A stretch of 34,800 nucleotides of DNA from NCBI GenBank assembly GCA_003671075.1, contig QWPT01000002.1:121458-156257 (forward strand), in the 5' to 3' direction. The position numbers were made by a program, and so were the translations under genes. This document shows positions 9,925 to 29,213 of the stretch, piece by piece. The first letter of the stretch is position 1. Each line of letters opens with the position of its first letter. Under the pieces are notes generated by a model. It saw nothing but the letters and a program-made list of their open reading frames with translations. It was not told where the DNA came from and ran no database searches. This DNA is from Planctomycetota bacterium (lineage in GTDB: Bacteria; Planctomycetota; Phycisphaerae; Phycisphaerales; SM1A02).

Positions 9925-10722
9925 TTACGGGCAAGGGCCCCACGCGCTGAGCATCGCGGCGAGATCGATGGCGTTGGTCGTGCCGTCGCCGTTGATGTCC
10001 CCTCCACCCGTACCCCACGCGCTGAGCAGGATCGAAAGGTCGGGCGCGGTCACGCTGCCATCGGCATTGAGATCGCTCGAGCAGGGCGGTCCGCTGCCCG
10101 CAAGATTCGCCTCAACCCACGCAATCGCCGCATCGTGCTCGGCTTCGCTGCGATCATCGTTGAACACGATCCAGAACGGCGCGCTTGGCTTAGTCACGCC
10201 GTCGGTCGCGTACAGCTCGAGCTCCACGACATAGATGCCAGACGGCGACAGTTTCGCGCCCGCTGAGAACAGCGTGAAGTTGAGATGCCTGTGCCAGCCG
10301 CCGTCGGACTGCACGGTCAGGTCGAATCCCGGAGAGGCCTCCGATCCGATCACGGACGAAAGAATGAGATAGCTCGCTTCAATGCGTTCATCGCCGACGG
10401 GTTCGAGCGACTCGCCGTTGAAGCGCCGCAGGCCTGCAAGCGAGTTGAATCCCGTGCGCGTCCCCGGCTCGAATGTCCCTGCGGGCGCGATGAATCCCGG
10501 CTCGTCGGTGAAGTCGGGAACGCCGGTTGCGCCGAAATCTGCAGAAAAGACGCGGTTCGCAACGAGGCCGCTCGCGGTGTCGATCGATGTCGTGACCGCG
10601 CCGTCCATCCTGTGAATGATGATGTCGAAATGCTGCGCTGACGCGGAGCTCGTGATGAGCGCCGTTGCGGCGGCGATGCAGGCGAAGGCAGTGCTTCTGT
10701 TCGTGTTCGTGTTCATTTTCAT
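9925..10722 (-). CDS. Secreted protein with C-terminal dockerin-like cassette
   Basis: A 265-residue exported protein. A Sec signal ends near ITSSASA|QHF. The ~180-residue central domain has no family I recognise; it begins FDIIIHRMDG, is rich in beta-prone stretches and includes GIYVVELELYATDGV and PFWIVFNDD. The last ~55 residues hold two dockerin-type EF-hand loops, DLNADGSVTAPD and DINGDGTTNAID, each followed by a LLSAWG-type helix. Both loops keep the D-x-N-x-D-G-x-x-x-x-x-D calcium ligands. The gene lies 15 bp downstream of the pseudopilin and is probably co-transcribed. The first codons form a hexamer repeat, ATGAAA-ATGAAC-ACGAAC-ACGAAC. The cassette DNA is nearly identical to that of the gene at 24597. 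Confidence 0.85.
   Translation of the reverse strand: MKMNTNTNRSTAFACIAAATALITSSASAQHFDIIIHRMDGAVTTSIDTASGLVANRVFSADFGATGVPDFTDEPGFIAPAGTFEPGTRTGFNSLAGLRRFNGESLEPVGDERIEASYLILSSVIGSEASPGFDLTVQSDGGWHRHLNFTLFSAGAKLSPSGIYVVELELYATDGVTKPSAPFWIVFNDDRSEAEHDAAIAWVEANLAGSGPPCSSDLNADGSVTAPDLSILLSAWGTGGGDINGDGTTNAIDLAAMLSAWGPCP
10699..10722. repeat. Hexamer tandem repeat beginning at the start codon
   Basis: Read on the minus strand, the first 24 bases of the dockerin gene are four hexamers (ATGAAA, ATGAAC, ACGAAC, ACGAAC) encoding M-K-M-N-T-N-T-N. Copies drift from ATG to ACG, the same drift as in the repeat at 26616. Confidence 0.75.
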
Positions 10723-13422: not shown

Positions 13423-14025
13423 TCACGCTCGACGGCGTCGACCGGCGAGCGCACCGAGCACGAGCAGGGCCGCGGCGCCAGGTGCGGGCACGGCGGTGAC
13501 GGTGAATGCACTACCGCTGGCGAGGTACTCGATGCTGTTGGTGCTGATCGTGAAGCGGAACAGGTTGTAGCCAGTGCTGCCGAAAGGAACGGTGACGCCC
13601 TTTGGATTCACGCCGTTGCTGAGGAAGTAGTACGAAGTCACGCCACCGCGCTGCGTGGAGATGTCCGCTGCAGAAACGGTGGGGGTGGTGGTCGCATCGA
13701 AGGCCAAGTGAAGAAAGGCTTCGTAGGAAACGCCCTTGATGACGGTGGATCCCGCGTCGATCGCGCTGCCGCCTTGCAGCACGGCCAAGCTCATCGACTG
13801 CAGATACTGCGTGTTAAACGTCGTGTTCGGGAAGTTCGGATTGGCTTCGGTGAAGCTGAGCGGCGCGTCCGGCTTCGTGCTGAACAGTCCCTCGGCTCGG
13901 TAGCCGCCGTCGAAGTCGACGAAGAACTGGTAGTCGGCAGCGTTCGCGCAGGCGGCAATGGCGAGCGCAGTGGCGGCGATAAAGGTCGAGGAAAGCAGCG
14001 TTGATGTGCGATTGAATGTTTTCAT
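13423..14025 (-). CDS. Exported protein with PEP-CTERM-like sorting signal
   Basis: A 200-residue protein. The signal peptide (MKTFNRTSTLLSSTFIAATALAIA...) ends near ACANA|ADY. The body is beta-rich and unrecognised (FFVDFDGGYRAEGLFSTKP; FRFTISTNSIEYLASGSAFTV). The C-terminus, V-P-A-P-G then a hydrophobic stretch and a terminal R-R-R-R-A, fits a PEP-CTERM-type sorting tag, where an exosortase would cleave and an archaeosortase-like system would anchor the product. No exosortase is in the window. The ATG at 14025 is preferred over the longer frame to 14157 because it sits directly before the signal peptide. Three 12-bp repeats, each holding an in-frame GTG, abut this ATG. Confidence 0.78.
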   Translation of the reverse strand: MKTFNRTSTLLSSTFIAATALAIAACANAADYQFFVDFDGGYRAEGLFSTKPDAPLSFTEANPNFPNTTFNTQYLQSMSLAVLQGGSAIDAGSTVIKGVSYEAFLHLAFDATTTPTVSAADISTQRGGVTSYYFLSNGVNPKGVTVPFGSTGYNLFRFTISTNSIEYLASGSAFTVTAVPAPGAAALLVLGALAGRRRRA

Positions 14026-14061
14026 GGGATAGGTCACGGGATAGGTCACGGGATAGGTCAG
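14026..14061. repeat. 12-bp tandem repeat (three copies) abutting a start codon
   Basis: Units 14026-14037, 14038-14049 and 14050-14061 (GGGATAGGTCAC on the plus strand, last base of the third unit changed) sit directly upstream of the ATG at 14025. On the minus strand each reads G-TGACC-TATCCC and stays in frame with the gene (V-T-Y-P); the first two plus-strand units include a potential GTG start. Confidence 0.88.
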
Positions 14062-14284
14062 GGAAAAGTCTTGCGTCAGAACCCGTCGAAAGAGTTGTGC
14101 TCTTGGCTCGATCCCGATGACGACCTTCAGCTTCAACAATTCGAAGGTGCATCTCAATGGCGCTGAGTCAACACTTCTAGTGGTTCAATCGATTTTCTTG
14201 CGGAGTGCAGGCTGCGCGACTATCCGCGGAAACCGGCATGGTTCAGAAGTGCTACCTTTCCCAACCTTCAAGGAGCTTGCACCG

Positions 14285-22340: not shown

Positions 22341-22355
22341 AAAGGCGACTCCCCC

Positions 22356-22922
22356 ATGATCAACACCAAGTCGATCAACAGCAAATCGATCAACACCCAA
22401 TCGATCAACACCAAGTCGATCAACACCAAGCCGATCAACACCAGGTCAGCACCGCGCCGCGAACTTTCCTTCCATTGCACCGGATGCCTCAAGGAAGAGT
22501 TGGCGCGTATCGAGGACGCCCATCGCAAAGGCACGCTCACGCACACGGGAAACTGGACGGCGGGCGAGAATCTCGACCATGTGGCCAAGGCGTGGGAGTT
22601 CGCCATCGATGGCTTTCCGAGCGAGGTCAAGGTTCCGTGGTTCATTCGCCTCATCGCAAGCACAATGAAGGGCCGCATGACCAGCGGCAAGACTCTTCCT
22701 GCGGGCTTCAAGATGGGTAAGGGCGGCGAGAGTTTTCTTCCAACGCCAGGAACGACCGTCGAAGCGGGGCTCGGGCGTTTGCGTGCGGTGGTCGATCGCC
22801 TCGACGCGGGCACGAAATGCACCAAGCCGAGTCCGGCGTTTGGCGCGTTGACGCACGATCAGTGGATGCGCCTCAACCTCGGGCACGCGCAACTGCATCT
22901 CGGATTCGTGTCGTATCCGTAA
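22356..22922 (+). CDS. DUF1569 (DinB-like fold) protein with repeat-built N-terminus
   Basis: 188 residues. Residues ~37-188 match the DUF1569 pattern: an opening LARIEDAHRKGTLTHTGNWTAGENLDHVAKAWEF region, a central TLPAGFKMGKGGE and the closing PAFGALTHDQWMRLNLGHAQLHLGF. The spaced His residues resemble the metal site of DinB/YfiT-type four-helix proteins. The function is unknown. The first ~32 residues are six five-residue units (I-N-T-K-S and variants) made by a 15-bp DNA repeat starting directly after the ATG. This tail is not part of the family and is positively charged and low-complexity. The gene follows the PA14 gene by 15 bp and an AAAAGG stretch precedes the start. Confidence 0.82.
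   Translation: MINTKSINSKSINTQSINTKSINTKPINTRSAPRRELSFHCTGCLKEELARIEDAHRKGTLTHTGNWTAGENLDHVAKAWEFAIDGFPSEVKVPWFIRLIASTMKGRMTSGKTLPAGFKMGKGGESFLPTPGTTVEAGLGRLRAVVDRLDAGTKCTKPSPAFGALTHDQWMRLNLGHAQLHLGFVSYP
22359..22448. repeat. 15-bp tandem repeat (six copies) directly after a start codon
   Basis: Six units, 22359-22373 through 22434-22448, follow the pattern ATCAACA(C/G)C(A/C)A(A/G)(T/C)C(G/A). Units 1 and 4 are identical. They encode I-N-T-K-S, I-N-S-K-S, I-N-T-Q-S, I-N-T-K-S, I-N-T-K-P and I-N-T-R-S. Confidence 0.93.
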
Positions 22923-24596: not shown

Positions 24597-26468
24597 ATGC
24601 GCACAAATTTCACGCTCGTTGCGGCATCGATCTCTGCCACTCTGACCACGATGGCCTTTGCGGGACCACCTGCCGTTTGGGAAAATGTTGTTGTCGCCAA
24701 CGGCACCAATGAAGCCCCGAGCGTCCCGGGCGGGATCATGGTACCGAACTCGATGAACAATCCTGTCATCGACGGCAACGGCAACATCACCATCCGTGTT
24801 CAGCTCGCTGGCGCCGGCATTACCACCGCCAATTCGCGCATCATCCTGACGGGTAAGCCTGGCGCCTGGCTGACCGCGGCGCGTGATGGTTCGCCAGTTC
24901 CTGGCGGCTTTCCGACCGGCTATGTGTTCAACTCGACGACCGGAATCAACGGTCTGGCGAGTTCAAACAACATCTCTGAGAACGGCGGAATCCTCGCGAG
25001 CGGCAACATCAACGGCGCAGGCAACACCGCGCTGCTCGACACAGCGATGTACTTCCTGCCCCGAAGCGGAACGCCGTTCAATGTGGTTCGCGAGAGCGAT
25101 CCCTGCCCAGGTACGGCTGGAGCGATCATGAGCTCCGCGATGACCGCGGGCAGCGGTCAGCAGACCAACGATCTCGGTCAATCCCTCTTCGCCACGGCCA
25201 TGACTGGCGGAGACACCGTCACGACTGGTGCCGGCGCCAACAACTCGGCGATCGTGCTGCTCACCGATGGAGCCGACCAGCTCATTCTTCGTAAGGGCGT
25301 ATCGGGTTCTGCCTACGGCTACCCGGGCCTTACCATCACCCCCGACACTTTCGGCCTCTGGCTGACAGGCAGCAAAGTCGCCTTCTCCGCCAAGCTCGTT
25401 GGAACTGGAATCACCACCGCCAACGACGCGATTTACATGACGAGCTTTGGGGCCAACCCGAAGGTTGGGCTGCGGGTTTGGGCGCGCGAAGGCGATGCGA
25501 TTCCTGGCTTCGCGGGTCTCACCATCGCTAACACCAGCTCGCTCTCGTTCAGCCAGCATCCGATGGCCAACGACGGCACGATTCTCTTCATCGCGACCCT
25601 CGGCGGCTCGGCCGATGCCACCAACAATGCGGCAGTCATGACCGAAAAATTCGGCACCTTCAACATCCTGATGCGCAAGGGCGATTCGATCCCTGGCATC
25701 ACCGACTCAACCGATCCAAACTTTGCTGGCAAGGTGTTTCAACAGCCGAATACCTCCGCGTTCGTCAAGAACCGCAACGGGCTTCTCGCGTTTCAGGGCA
25801 TCTTCATGAACCCAGATGGTTCGGGCATTGTTTCGCCCGCTCCGTCTACTTTCTTCGGAGTGCGAAGCGCCGAAGGCGTGGTCACGACCATCCTGCGTCA
25901 GGGTGATCCGGTCGTCGGTCTGGCTGCCGGTTGGGTGTACAGCAGCATCAACGGCAGCACTTCCCCCTGTGTCAGCGACGCGGGCGTGGTCGTGTTCAGC
26001 GCGAGCATCGTGAACGCCACAATTCAAGAGGACGGCTCGGCGATCATGGCTTGGGATGCGGCCAATGGACTTCGTGTGCTCGCGAAGGCAACGACGAGCT
26101 CTGTGAGTCCGTTTGGTCCGACTGGCGACACCAATTTCACCGGAACTCCGTGCAATGCGTGCACGCTCATCGGCTCGACTGGCAACAACGGCGACGGTGG
26201 TCACACCGGCCTGAGCTCGAATGGCTGGCTCACGCTTCGCGCTTCCGACTCGGTCTCGGCCATCTACACGGTTGCCCGCATCTACCTCGGTGCAACTGGC
26301 GTACCGTGCCCGAGCGATCTCAATGCCGATGGCAGCGTGACCGCGCCTGACCTTTCGATCCTGCTCAGCGCGTGGGGTACGGGTGGAGGAGACATCAACG
26401 GCGACGGCACGACCAACGCCATCGATCTCGCCGCGCTCCTGAGCGCGTGGGGCGCCTGCCCTCAGTAA
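24597..26468 (+). CDS. Large secreted repeat protein with C-terminal dockerin-like cassette
   Basis: A 623-residue exported protein. The signal peptide (MRTNFTLVAASISATLTTMAFA) is followed by a body of about 540 residues with repeated motifs: VQLAGAGITTANSRIILTG, KLVGTGITTANDAIYMTS, then VWAREGDAIPGFAG, LMRKGDSIPGI and LRQGDPVVGL, each reading 'R-x-G-D-x-(I/V)-x-G'. These look like four or five units of a beta-propeller-like extracellular repeat, as in DUF7453-type planctomycete proteins; the family name is tentative. The C-terminal ~55 residues are two dockerin loops (DLNADGSVTAPD; DINGDGTTNAID) with all calcium ligands present. It is followed by a strong hairpin terminator. The cassette is nearly identical in DNA to that of the gene ending at 9925. 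Confidence 0.82.
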   Translation: MRTNFTLVAASISATLTTMAFAGPPAVWENVVVANGTNEAPSVPGGIMVPNSMNNPVIDGNGNITIRVQLAGAGITTANSRIILTGKPGAWLTAARDGSPVPGGFPTGYVFNSTTGINGLASSNNISENGGILASGNINGAGNTALLDTAMYFLPRSGTPFNVVRESDPCPGTAGAIMSSAMTAGSGQQTNDLGQSLFATAMTGGDTVTTGAGANNSAIVLLTDGADQLILRKGVSGSAYGYPGLTITPDTFGLWLTGSKVAFSAKLVGTGITTANDAIYMTSFGANPKVGLRVWAREGDAIPGFAGLTIANTSSLSFSQHPMANDGTILFIATLGGSADATNNAAVMTEKFGTFNILMRKGDSIPGITDSTDPNFAGKVFQQPNTSAFVKNRNGLLAFQGIFMNPDGSGIVSPAPSTFFGVRSAEGVVTTILRQGDPVVGLAAGWVYSSINGSTSPCVSDAGVVVFSASIVNATIQEDGSAIMAWDAANGLRVLAKATTSSVSPFGPTGDTNFTGTPCNACTLIGSTGNNGDGGHTGLSSNGWLTLRASDSVSAIYTVARIYLGATGVPCPSDLNADGSVTAPDLSILLSAWGTGGGDINGDGTTNAIDLAALLSAWGACPQ

Positions 26469-26591: not shown

Positions 26592-27902
26592 ATGATGCCA
26601 AACCTCACCGCCACCATGCTCTCAGGCATGCTCTCAGGCACGCTCTCAGGCACGCTCGCCACCCTGTGCTTCACCGTCTCCTTCACATGCGCGACGGCGT
26701 CGGCGGGCGAGCTCTATCTCCTCGGACTCGTTCCGCAGGCCTACGCCGAAGATGTCAGCGACAACGGCCAGGTGGTCGTGGGCCACGACCCGCAGTCCTA
26801 CTGGTACTGGACTCCCACCACCGGCGTCGTGCAGCTGCTCAACACCATTCCGCCAGGAAACGGCGCTGGCGGTCAGGGGTGCATCACCGCTGACGGACGC
26901 TACATGACTTGCAGCACGCTCCAAGGCGATCTGCAGAAGGCCGAAGCGACGATCTACGACATTCAGCTCGCCAAGTTTCGCTCGATCGGAAGCTGGGGCT
27001 ACAACTGCGATATCGAGCGCACTGGCGCGTGGGGCATGTCCAACGACGGGCAGCATGTGGTCGGCCTCGGTTGGCAGATCGGTTGCGCCGCACGCGGATT
27101 CGTGTGGAACGAAGGCGACACCGCGCTCACCGATCTCGGCACCCTGTATTTCTACAAGCCCACCCGCGCCAACGCCGTCAGCGACAACGGCGGCGTGATC
27201 GCTGGATGGAACGACGACTACACCGGTTGGCGCCAAGCCGCCGCTTGGATCAAGAACGCGCAGGGCGTGTTTGTGCAGACCAACATCTCCGCGCCTCCGT
27301 CACCGGGCAGCACCATCCCGATCAAGATGCCCGAGGCCGGTGTGGTCAGCGGCAACGGTCAGTGGGTGTATGGCATTGGTCGCAGCGCTTACGCCGGCGG
27401 CGGCGCGTGGCGGTGGAGTCCCGCGACAGGCGTGCAGCCCGTCGGGACCAATCCGACTACGGATATTGGCTATGTCGTCGCAGCAAACTTCGACGGTTCG
27501 CGCGTCCTCTGCTTCTACGGAATGATGGGTTCCTCCGGCTCGTACATGTGGACTCCCAAGCGCGGATATGTGTCGCTCGCGCAACTTGCCAGCGAGGCTT
27601 CGGTGACGATTCCCCAGGGCTGGACGCTCAATCTTCCTTTGGGCATGAGCGAGGACGGGCTCTCCATCGTCGGTACCGCGTTTGGTCCCAACGGTTCATC
27701 GCCGTTCGTGCTCGACCTTCGTCCGACGGCGCAGTTCTGCACTGCGGATTTCGTTGCCAACGGCAGCGTCGACGCGCAGGATCTCGCGGTGCTGCTGAGC
27801 CAGTGGGGCAATGTTGGAGGCCAGGCCGATCTCAATGCCGATGGATCCGTCGGTCCGCAAGATCTCGCGATTCTGCTCGGCCAGTGGGGCCCGTGCCTCT
27901 AA
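26592..27902 (+). CDS. Secreted HAF-repeat protein with dockerin-like C-terminus (paralogue 1)
   Basis: 436 residues. The signal peptide ends near CATASA|GEL. The body carries HAF-type repeats (ALTDLGTLYFYKPTRANAVS followed by DNGGVIAGWNDD; EAGVVSGNGQWVYGIG; GMSEDGLSIVGTAFG), probably a propeller. Two dockerin-type loops end the protein. The first, DFVANGSVDAQD, has lost the ligand positions 3 and 5; the second, DLNADGSVGPQD, is intact. About 70% of residues look shared with the next gene, so the pair is a tandem duplication. Its N-terminus contains a 12-bp repeat that starts at an in-frame ATG (26616), so a start there is possible as well as at 26592. Ligand and role are unknown; a surface or extracellular location is expected. 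Confidence 0.82.
   Translation: MMPNLTATMLSGMLSGTLSGTLATLCFTVSFTCATASAGELYLLGLVPQAYAEDVSDNGQVVVGHDPQSYWYWTPTTGVVQLLNTIPPGNGAGGQGCITADGRYMTCSTLQGDLQKAEATIYDIQLAKFRSIGSWGYNCDIERTGAWGMSNDGQHVVGLGWQIGCAARGFVWNEGDTALTDLGTLYFYKPTRANAVSDNGGVIAGWNDDYTGWRQAAAWIKNAQGVFVQTNISAPPSPGSTIPIKMPEAGVVSGNGQWVYGIGRSAYAGGGAWRWSPATGVQPVGTNPTTDIGYVVAANFDGSRVLCFYGMMGSSGSYMWTPKRGYVSLAQLASEASVTIPQGWTLNLPLGMSEDGLSIVGTAFGPNGSSPFVLDLRPTAQFCTADFVANGSVDAQDLAVLLSQWGNVGGQADLNADGSVGPQDLAILLGQWGPCL
26616..26660. repeat. 12-bp tandem repeat with ATG-to-ACG drift at the N-terminus
   Basis: Units 26616-26627 and 26628-26639 are ATGCTCTCAGGC; 26640-26651 is ACGCTCTCAGGC; 26652-26660 is ACGCTCGCC. Encoded: M-L-S-G-M-L-S-G-T-L-S-G-T-L-A. 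Confidence 0.92.
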
Positions 27903-27953
27903 CGCCGTCGCCATTTCGTCCACGCAACACCATTGGATAGATTGGGTAACAAC

Positions 27954-29213
27954 ATGCAAATGCATCATGCACTGTTCGCCACCGTCGTCTTGGCCGCTTC
28001 GACTTGCGCCAACGCGGGCGAGCTCTTCCTTCTCGGCCTCGTTCCGCAGGCGTACGCAGAGAGCACGAGTGACAATGGTCTTGTTGTCGCTGGACATGAT
28101 CCGCAGTCGTATTGGTACTGGACTCGCGAAACGGGCGTGGTGCAGTTGATCGGTACGACCGTTTCGCCGGGTAACGGCGTCGGAGGCCAGGGCTCCATCA
28201 GCGCGGATGGTCGCTTCATGTCGGTGAGCTCGCTTCAAGGCGATGCGCAGAAGGCCGAAGGAACGATCTACGACATCGACCTGGCGTTGTTTCAGCCGAT
28301 CGGGAGTTACGGATTTCACTGCGACATCGAGCGCTGCAGCATCTGGGGCATGACCCGCGACGCGCAGTCGGCGGTCGGCCTCATCGATCAGGGACCGTGC
28401 GACGCCATCGCTTTCAAGTGGAGCGCGGCGACCAATGCCTTCACCAATCTCGGCACGCTGTACTTCTTCAAGCCATCGCGCGCCAACGCGGTGAGCAACG
28501 ACGGCGCGACGATCGCGGGCTGGAACGACGACTACAGCGGCTACCGTCAGGGCGCGGTCTGGATCCGCAACGCCGCGGGTGTTTATGTGCAAACCAACAT
28601 CACTGCGCCGCCACCTTCGGGAACCGTCCCGATCAAGATGCGCGAGGCTGGTGTGGTCAGCGGCAACGGTCAGTGGGTGTATGGCATCGGCCGCACTGGT
28701 TACGCCGGCGGCGGCGCGTGGCGGTGGAGTCCCGCGACAGGCGTGCAGCCCGTCGGAACCAATCCGACGACGGATATTGGCTATGTCGTCGGAGCAAACT
28801 TCGACGGCACGCGCGTCCTCTGCTTCTACGGGGTCATGGGTTCGGCAGGCTCGTTCATGTGGACGCCCAAGCGCGGCTATGTGTCGCTCGCCACTATCGC
28901 CGCCGAAGCAGGCGTGGTCATTCCCGCAGGTTGGGCTTTGAGCCTTCCGCTCGGGATGTCCGAGGATGGCCTGACGATCGTCGGCACTGCGTTTGGGCCA
29001 AACGGCACTTCACCATTCGTACTTGATCTTCGCGCGGGTGGCGGTCCTTGCCCGGCCGACCTAAACGCCGATGCCACCGTTGGGGCGCAGGACCTTGCGA
29101 TCTTGCTTTCAGCGTGGGGTTCGCTGGGCGGCAGCGCTGATCTCAACGGCGACGGCCTAGTCGGCGCGCAAGACCTCGCAGTGCTCCTGAGCGCGTGGGG
29201 CGCCTGCCCGTAA
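27954..29213 (+). CDS. Secreted HAF-repeat protein with dockerin-like C-terminus (paralogue 2)
   Basis: A 419-residue tandem paralogue of the preceding gene, 51 bp downstream. The signal peptide is MQMHHALFATVVLAASTCANA|GEL. The same repeats are present in the same order (TNLGTLYFFKPSRANAVS; EAGVVSGNGQWVYGIG; GMSEDGLTIVGTAFG). The C-terminal loops are DLNADATVGAQD (Gly at position 6 changed to Ala) and DLNGDGLVGAQD. A 204-bp stretch (28628-28831) matches the first paralogue with only 12 differences, while neighbouring regions are clearly less alike, suggesting gene conversion. An in-frame TTG at 27933 is a weaker start. A terminator with a triplicated arm follows the stop. Confidence 0.83.
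   Translation: MQMHHALFATVVLAASTCANAGELFLLGLVPQAYAESTSDNGLVVAGHDPQSYWYWTRETGVVQLIGTTVSPGNGVGGQGSISADGRFMSVSSLQGDAQKAEGTIYDIDLALFQPIGSYGFHCDIERCSIWGMTRDAQSAVGLIDQGPCDAIAFKWSAATNAFTNLGTLYFFKPSRANAVSNDGATIAGWNDDYSGYRQGAVWIRNAAGVYVQTNITAPPPSGTVPIKMREAGVVSGNGQWVYGIGRTGYAGGGAWRWSPATGVQPVGTNPTTDIGYVVGANFDGTRVLCFYGVMGSAGSFMWTPKRGYVSLATIAAEAGVVIPAGWALSLPLGMSEDGLTIVGTAFGPNGTSPFVLDLRAGGGPCPADLNADATVGAQDLAILLSAWGSLGGSADLNGDGLVGAQDLAVLLSAWGACP

Follow-up and report, generated by a model that had tools for sequence, protein, structure and literature searches.

Two genes with nearly the same ending

How do two genes whose products are otherwise unrelated come to share a terminal domain that is almost identical at the level of DNA? 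The question is raised by genes A and B of the window (the whole 34,800-nucleotide stretch of DNA that was analysed). They face outward, and their C-terminal dockerin-coding sequences form an inverted repeat 16.2 kb apart. The features discussed are collected in Table 1. The source genome comprises 3.35 Mb in 113 contigs.

Direct alignment of the two 125 bp tracts gives just two mismatches (CCC/CCT and GGG/GGA), both at silent third codon positions, in agreement with the preliminary description. Within them the longest run without a mismatch is 45 bp. The repeat finder placed the arms of the inverted repeat at 9929-10086 and 26304-26461 (158 nt, 94%), and returned only one other inverted repeat of at least 40 nt, with a length of 63 nt and an identity of 73%. 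The bases immediately beyond each end of the tract are unlike in the two genes, as are the sequences downstream of the stop codons. The upstream parts of the proteins had been described as unrelated, and this was borne out by blastp, where the best alignment has E = 0.13 over 16 aa.

Table 1. Coordinates of the genes, tracts and short identity blocks within the window
Feature	Position	Strand	Remarks
Gene A	9925..10722	-	265 aa ORF, C-terminal type I dockerin; Pfam Dockerin_1, 32.2 bits
Conversion tract in gene A	9955..10079	-	Likely recipient
Gene A end past the tract	9925..9954	-	Last three sense codons as in G012 ortholog; native-looking
Gene B	24597..26468	+	623 aa, DUF7453 / NxxGxxAF-repeat protein, C-terminal dockerin
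Matching tract in gene B	26311..26435	+	Likely donor
12-bp block, exact in B and G012 A ortholog	26310..26321	+	5' tract edge; possible recombination foothold
14-bp block, exact in B and G012 A ortholog	26439..26452	+	Just past 3' tract edge; putative foothold
Tandem gene 1, HAF-repeat protein	26592..27902	+	Dockerin-like end 17.5 bits, Pfam cut-off 22.9
Tandem gene 2, paralog of tandem gene 1	27933..29213	+	73% aa over 357; dockerin-like end 21.8 bits, below cut-off
Conversion-like tract, body of tandem gene 1	27312..27518	+	Partner 28623-28829
Partner tract in tandem gene 2	28623..28829	+	Repeat family D1

Two other features of the window were recorded. An array of 15-bp repeats (family D3, 22343-22457) coincides with the beginning of ORF 22356-22922 and encodes an in-frame five-residue repeat, SINTK-like. 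The ORF at 13423-14157 on the reverse strand (244 aa) has no Pfam match at E = 0.01, and ends in VPAPGAAALLVLGALAGRRRRA, which resembles a sorting tail of the PEP-CTERM type.

The dockerin domains of A and B

Each of the two proteins has two EF-hand-like loops, DLNADGSVTAPD and DINGDGTTNAID, with a linker between them, the loops being recognized by the spacing of their ligands. Both pass the curated cut-off of 22.9 bits for the type I dockerin (Pfam PF00404), B with a score of 27.8. They were not assigned to the GC-type dockerins (NCBIfam NF041540), for which they score 17.8 and 18.9 bits with a curated cut-off of 29. A docking function is plausible because the source genome has three matches to the cohesin model, two of them above cut-off.

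For comparison at the DNA level we used a set of 104 cassettes, each a profile match covering at least 75% of the profile, from stretches around 126 protein matches; partial matches were excluded. The profile replaced a regular-expression search that had provided 19 cassettes. Within this set a cysteine just before the first loop and another in the short tail are both present in 45 cassettes and both absent from 46, with 13 having one of the two. There are thus apparently two kinds of dockerin ending, and the paired cysteines could possibly form a disulphide clasp.

Identity in excess of codon usage

Could the near-identity of A and B simply reflect extreme codon bias, together with purifying selection on a dockerin bound to one partner? 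The loops are indeed conserved in sequence across the cassette set. We compared 5347 pairs of cassettes, 9 of the 5356 having been dropped with fewer than 35 aligned codons. Their DNA identity has a median of 57% and a 99.9th percentile of 74%. Just six pairs exceed 75%, and A/B ranks first with 96.5%. Over all the dockerin pairs an identical amino acid is encoded by an identical codon in 50% of cases. In the A/B tract 39 of 41 codons are the same, compared with 18.4 expected if codons are used as in the remaining 102 cassettes (P = 1.1e-12, or 5.9e-9 after allowing for 5347 pairs). These two counts rule out codon bias, an explanation to which we attach virtually no weight.

The preliminary description had argued that purifying selection would not suffice, and had proposed aligning the dockerin ends of the whole genome; the alignment supports its reading. 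It had also named the finding that would count against it, namely codons shared genome-wide with no tract edges. This fails, given a codon agreement of just 50% over all pairs and only six pairs above 75%, and the edges of the tract lie inside the domain. Silent identity far above that given by codon usage, with edges inside homologous sequence, is what characterizes gene conversion. The synonymous divergence (dS) of A and B is 0.067 in the tract and 0.156 over the whole 52-codon cassette. There is no third near copy of the A/B cassette among the 104 examined.

Comparison with relatives

Orthologs of the body of gene A are present in 11 of 15 relatives in the genus, and those of gene B in 12 of 15. 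The nearest relative compared, G012, represents the pre-event state only at some distance; its orthologs are 81% (A) and 77% (B) identical in amino acid sequence. Between the source genome and G012, dS is 0.37 for the body of A and 0.94 for that of B. The A and B cassettes are 94% alike in the source genome, compared with 63-74% in the 10 other genomes of the genus that have both genes. The A/B identity of 96.5% may be set against 69.5% between the A cassettes of the source genome and G012, and 77.8% between the B cassettes. The two copies in one genome are therefore more alike than the orthologs.

The two genes differ in how their cassettes compare with the rest of the gene. In 20-codon windows after the first, the body of A has 80-95% DNA identity to its G012 ortholog, and this falls to 63-68% in the cassette windows. 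The B cassette, at 77.8%, lies within the values given by the windows of its body (62-83%). The B cassette and that of the G012 B ortholog are mutual best matches. For the A cassette the best match in G012 is also the B ortholog, and its own ortholog comes 7th among 122 cassettes, a number that includes at least one duplicate. Among 16 genomes of the genus, with initial candidates limited to 40 per genome, the cassette has its closest DNA counterpart beyond the source genome again in G012 B (82% over 109 bp). When averaged over the genus, the identity of either cassette to B cassettes (64%) is only slightly above that to A cassettes (62-63%). The last three sense codons of A (CCT TGC CCG) equal those of its G012 ortholog, which suggests that past the tract A retains its original end.

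In two relatives (G003 and G004) a single contig carries A and B, separated by 14-16 kb and again facing outward in the same order; the remaining 8 of the 10 genomes that have both genes carry them on separate contigs. A scan of named genomes located relatives of gene B at four loci, in records titled uncultured bacterium (two), Phycisphaera sp. and Planctomycetaceae bacterium.

Probable direction of copying

We consider a recent short gene conversion between A and B, in one direction or the other, to be highly probable, and most of that confidence goes to copying from B to A. Recent copying from B into A is favored by the ranking of the G012 cassettes, the drop in identity at the A cassette, and the 63-74% identity of the two cassettes in the 10 other genomes. 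The drop alone is no proof of replacement, because cassettes below 70%, with no known donor, also occur in other ortholog pairs that are well conserved.

Within the 41-codon tract, 22 informative sites agree with G012 B, 11 with G012 A and 7 with neither (P = 0.08). The best tree of the cassettes (26 rows, and too short to fix the direction) joins A, B and G012 B with support of only 50/45, and an AU test does not reject trees in which the A cassette stays with the A ortholog (p = 0.31 alone, and 0.36 jointly with that of B). Site counts and tree test together do no more than lean toward B as the source. The same process might instead have run from A to B or both ways, or the cassette could be a mosaic of both. 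In the first 17 codons A-like sites outnumber B-like ones by 9 to 7, as this would suggest, but the remainder is B-like by 15 to 2. Moreover the G012 B cassette is the best of the 122 for both cassettes. Copying from A to B would also require the cassette of A to have fallen far below its body, while that of B, at 78% to its ortholog, stays in the range of its body. We therefore consider these variants rather unlikely, and B the likelier donor, as judged from the sequences.

A probable short patch, possibly bounded by identity

The best reading of these comparisons is that the near-identity of A and B is due to a single recent patch, the pattern being confined to the source genome among those compared. 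Non-reciprocal recombination would have overwritten part of A with the matching stretch, about 125 bp long, from the end of B that encodes the dockerin, recently relative to the split from G012. The patch would have stayed inside the dockerin because A and B have no other homology, leaving the N-terminus, body, linker and final codons of A as they were. The preliminary description had offered recent transfer or continuing conversion. One recent conversion fits A and B best, and continuing conversion is not indicated for them, because the pair is not homogenised in the 10 other genomes with both genes.

The recombination would presumably follow a RecA-type pathway, with short blocks of identity at both edges acting as footholds; a search of the open-licence literature found no paper on a named short-patch pathway. 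If the G012 A cassette is taken as a stand-in for the former cassette of A, just two ungapped exact runs reach 9 bp in the comparison with the B cassette, one of 12 and one of 14 bp, and these are at the edges of the tract. This fits a conversion bounded by short identity blocks, and is suggestive only, because the blocks encode conserved parts of the domain. If a two-EF-hand docking module has been copied then A and B should dock to the same partner.

A different origin would be a mobile or shared docking cassette, in which a third, unsampled copy gave its domain to both genes by dedicated or illegitimate end-swapping. Dockerin cassettes do sit on many unrelated bodies. Furthermore, among 64 ortholog pairs in the source genome and G012 (bodies at least 60% identical over at least 150 aa), the cassettes of 15 fall under the 95th percentile of non-ortholog identity; 27 are mutually best. 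However, no flanks were copied with the domain, the third copy is missing from the 104 cassettes, and the B cassette appears to be vertically inherited. No copied unit with its own flanks or terminal repeats, as expected for a mobile gene cassette, was found at the A/B tract, and nothing in the analysis pointed to a dedicated cassette-moving system. Near-identical pairs are also rare under a strict codon test, with 2 of 5347 in the source genome and none that is real among 7330 in G012 and 5535 in G013. An origin of this kind thus seems improbable.

The genome is fragmented and probably metagenome-derived, and the four named relatives look metagenome-binned, so that a chimera of assembly must also be considered. 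Yet the copies differ at two sites with no exact match longer than 45 bp, A reverts to A-like sequence past the tract, and the arrangement of A and B on one contig recurs in G003 and G004. An artifact of assembly is very improbable.

Probable conversion elsewhere in the genome

The tandem genes that follow gene B carry a similar, conversion-like tract in their bodies. Within it 53 of 59 synonymous codons are the same, compared with a rate of 0.61 for the pair, and none of 2000 permutations was as high. In the core windows the synonymous differences are 15-16% between the paralogs and 58-68% between orthologs. The dockerin-like ends of these genes are 63% identical and not homogenised.

Another tandem pair of the source genome (G000 C92:39711-42068 and C92:42493-44961) has cassettes 95% identical and bodies 46% identical in amino acid sequence. 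The counterpart pair in G012 (C29) has cassettes about 88-89% identical, compared with 78% and 82% for the orthologous ones. Within the pair, dS of the cassettes is 0.13 in the source genome and 0.27 in G012, compared with 0.80 and 0.49 between orthologs. The case comes mainly from the first gene, where the ortholog is 78% identical in the body, because for the second gene the orthologs reach only 52% identity and body dS gives a mixed result (1.44 and 0.75 between paralogs, 0.78 and 1.04 between orthologs). In both species the likeness extends about 95 bp beyond the stop codon and includes a terminator-like hairpin. The pattern resembles concerted evolution in two lineages, and continuing conversion is indicated for this pair and its G012 counterpart.

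With the permutation test, tracts at 0/2000 were obtained for 2 of 84 pairs in the source genome, 5 of 146 in G012 and 1 of 108 in G013, with P per pair and uncorrected; repeats inside some bodies may contribute. In the strict test three matches of 100% (one in G012 and two in G013) proved on comparison of coordinates to be single loci fetched twice and were dropped; the 106 cassettes of G013 include at least two duplicates. The G012 counterpart of the tandem pair (88%) fell short of this test. Since the tandem bodies carry the same type of tract and strictly near-identical cassettes are rare, a conversion system specific to dockerins was set aside. Conversion apparently acts on whatever is repeated, and between A and B that is only the dockerin.

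Cassettes less than 20 kb apart are on average slightly more alike (54 pairs, mean 0.607) than the 5293 others (mean 0.571; one-sided Mann-Whitney P = 6e-4), an excess due to few pairs, as 3 of the 54 and 3 of the 5293 exceed 75%. The weak cassette orthology of the 15 pairs noted above could be due to fast divergence, older replacement or wrong orthology. Loci with conserved bodies and a dockerin that carries no signal of orthology to the G012 ortholog include G000 C108:2675, C75:8228 and C75:11532, among others.

Discussion

Gene conversion and concerted evolution are known for bacterial paralogs, as outlined for the release factors RF1 and RF2 (PMC4530459) and for 26 genes in prokaryotes (PMC6053082). 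As summarized there, those cases share with the present one an excess of silent identity and copies that are closer within a genome than to their orthologs. A and B differ in being homologous in one 50-codon domain only, in proteins that are otherwise unrelated.

Conversion has also been connected with domain shuffling in animals. The receptors concerned are reportedly the CEACAM receptors, and they form a gene family with homologous neighbors. The summary of that work (PMC8860441) describes conversion moving one domain among proteins, as here, but A and B have unrelated bodies and belong to a bacterium. The modular enzymes of Ruminococcus flavefaciens, part of them dockerin-bearing, are outlined as undergoing domain shuffling (PMC2721979). 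These too are modular secreted proteins that alter their domain make-up, although by the variation of whole modules between strains, whereas A/B is a patch at the DNA level. A cohesin-dockerin 'planctosome' was proposed in 2019 for freshwater Planctomycetes (PMC6461901). It likewise involves dockerin-bearing proteins and cohesins in planctomycetes, but in outline it is a peptide-degrading complex of Nemodlikiaceae, and the outline does not touch on exchange of dockerins at the DNA level. In titles and abstract openings of the open-licence literature we found no report of gene conversion for dockerins. That A and B are a new instance of a known process, a short conversion confined to the shared domain, is well supported.

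A wider possibility, which we regard as doubtful, is that the dockerins of these planctomycetes form a genome-wide pool re-edited by very short conversions that start from only 11-14 identical bases. Were this true, a single step could redirect unrelated secreted proteins to a different docking partner, and the lost cassette orthology of the 15 pairs would be the older traces of such editing.

A and B provide a bounded and relatively dated example of how recombination can rewrite the docking domain alone in a secreted protein that is otherwise unrelated. Domain phylogenies would be blurred by events of this kind, so that trees of dockerins need not follow those of the genes that carry them, and the partner to which a protein docks could be altered.
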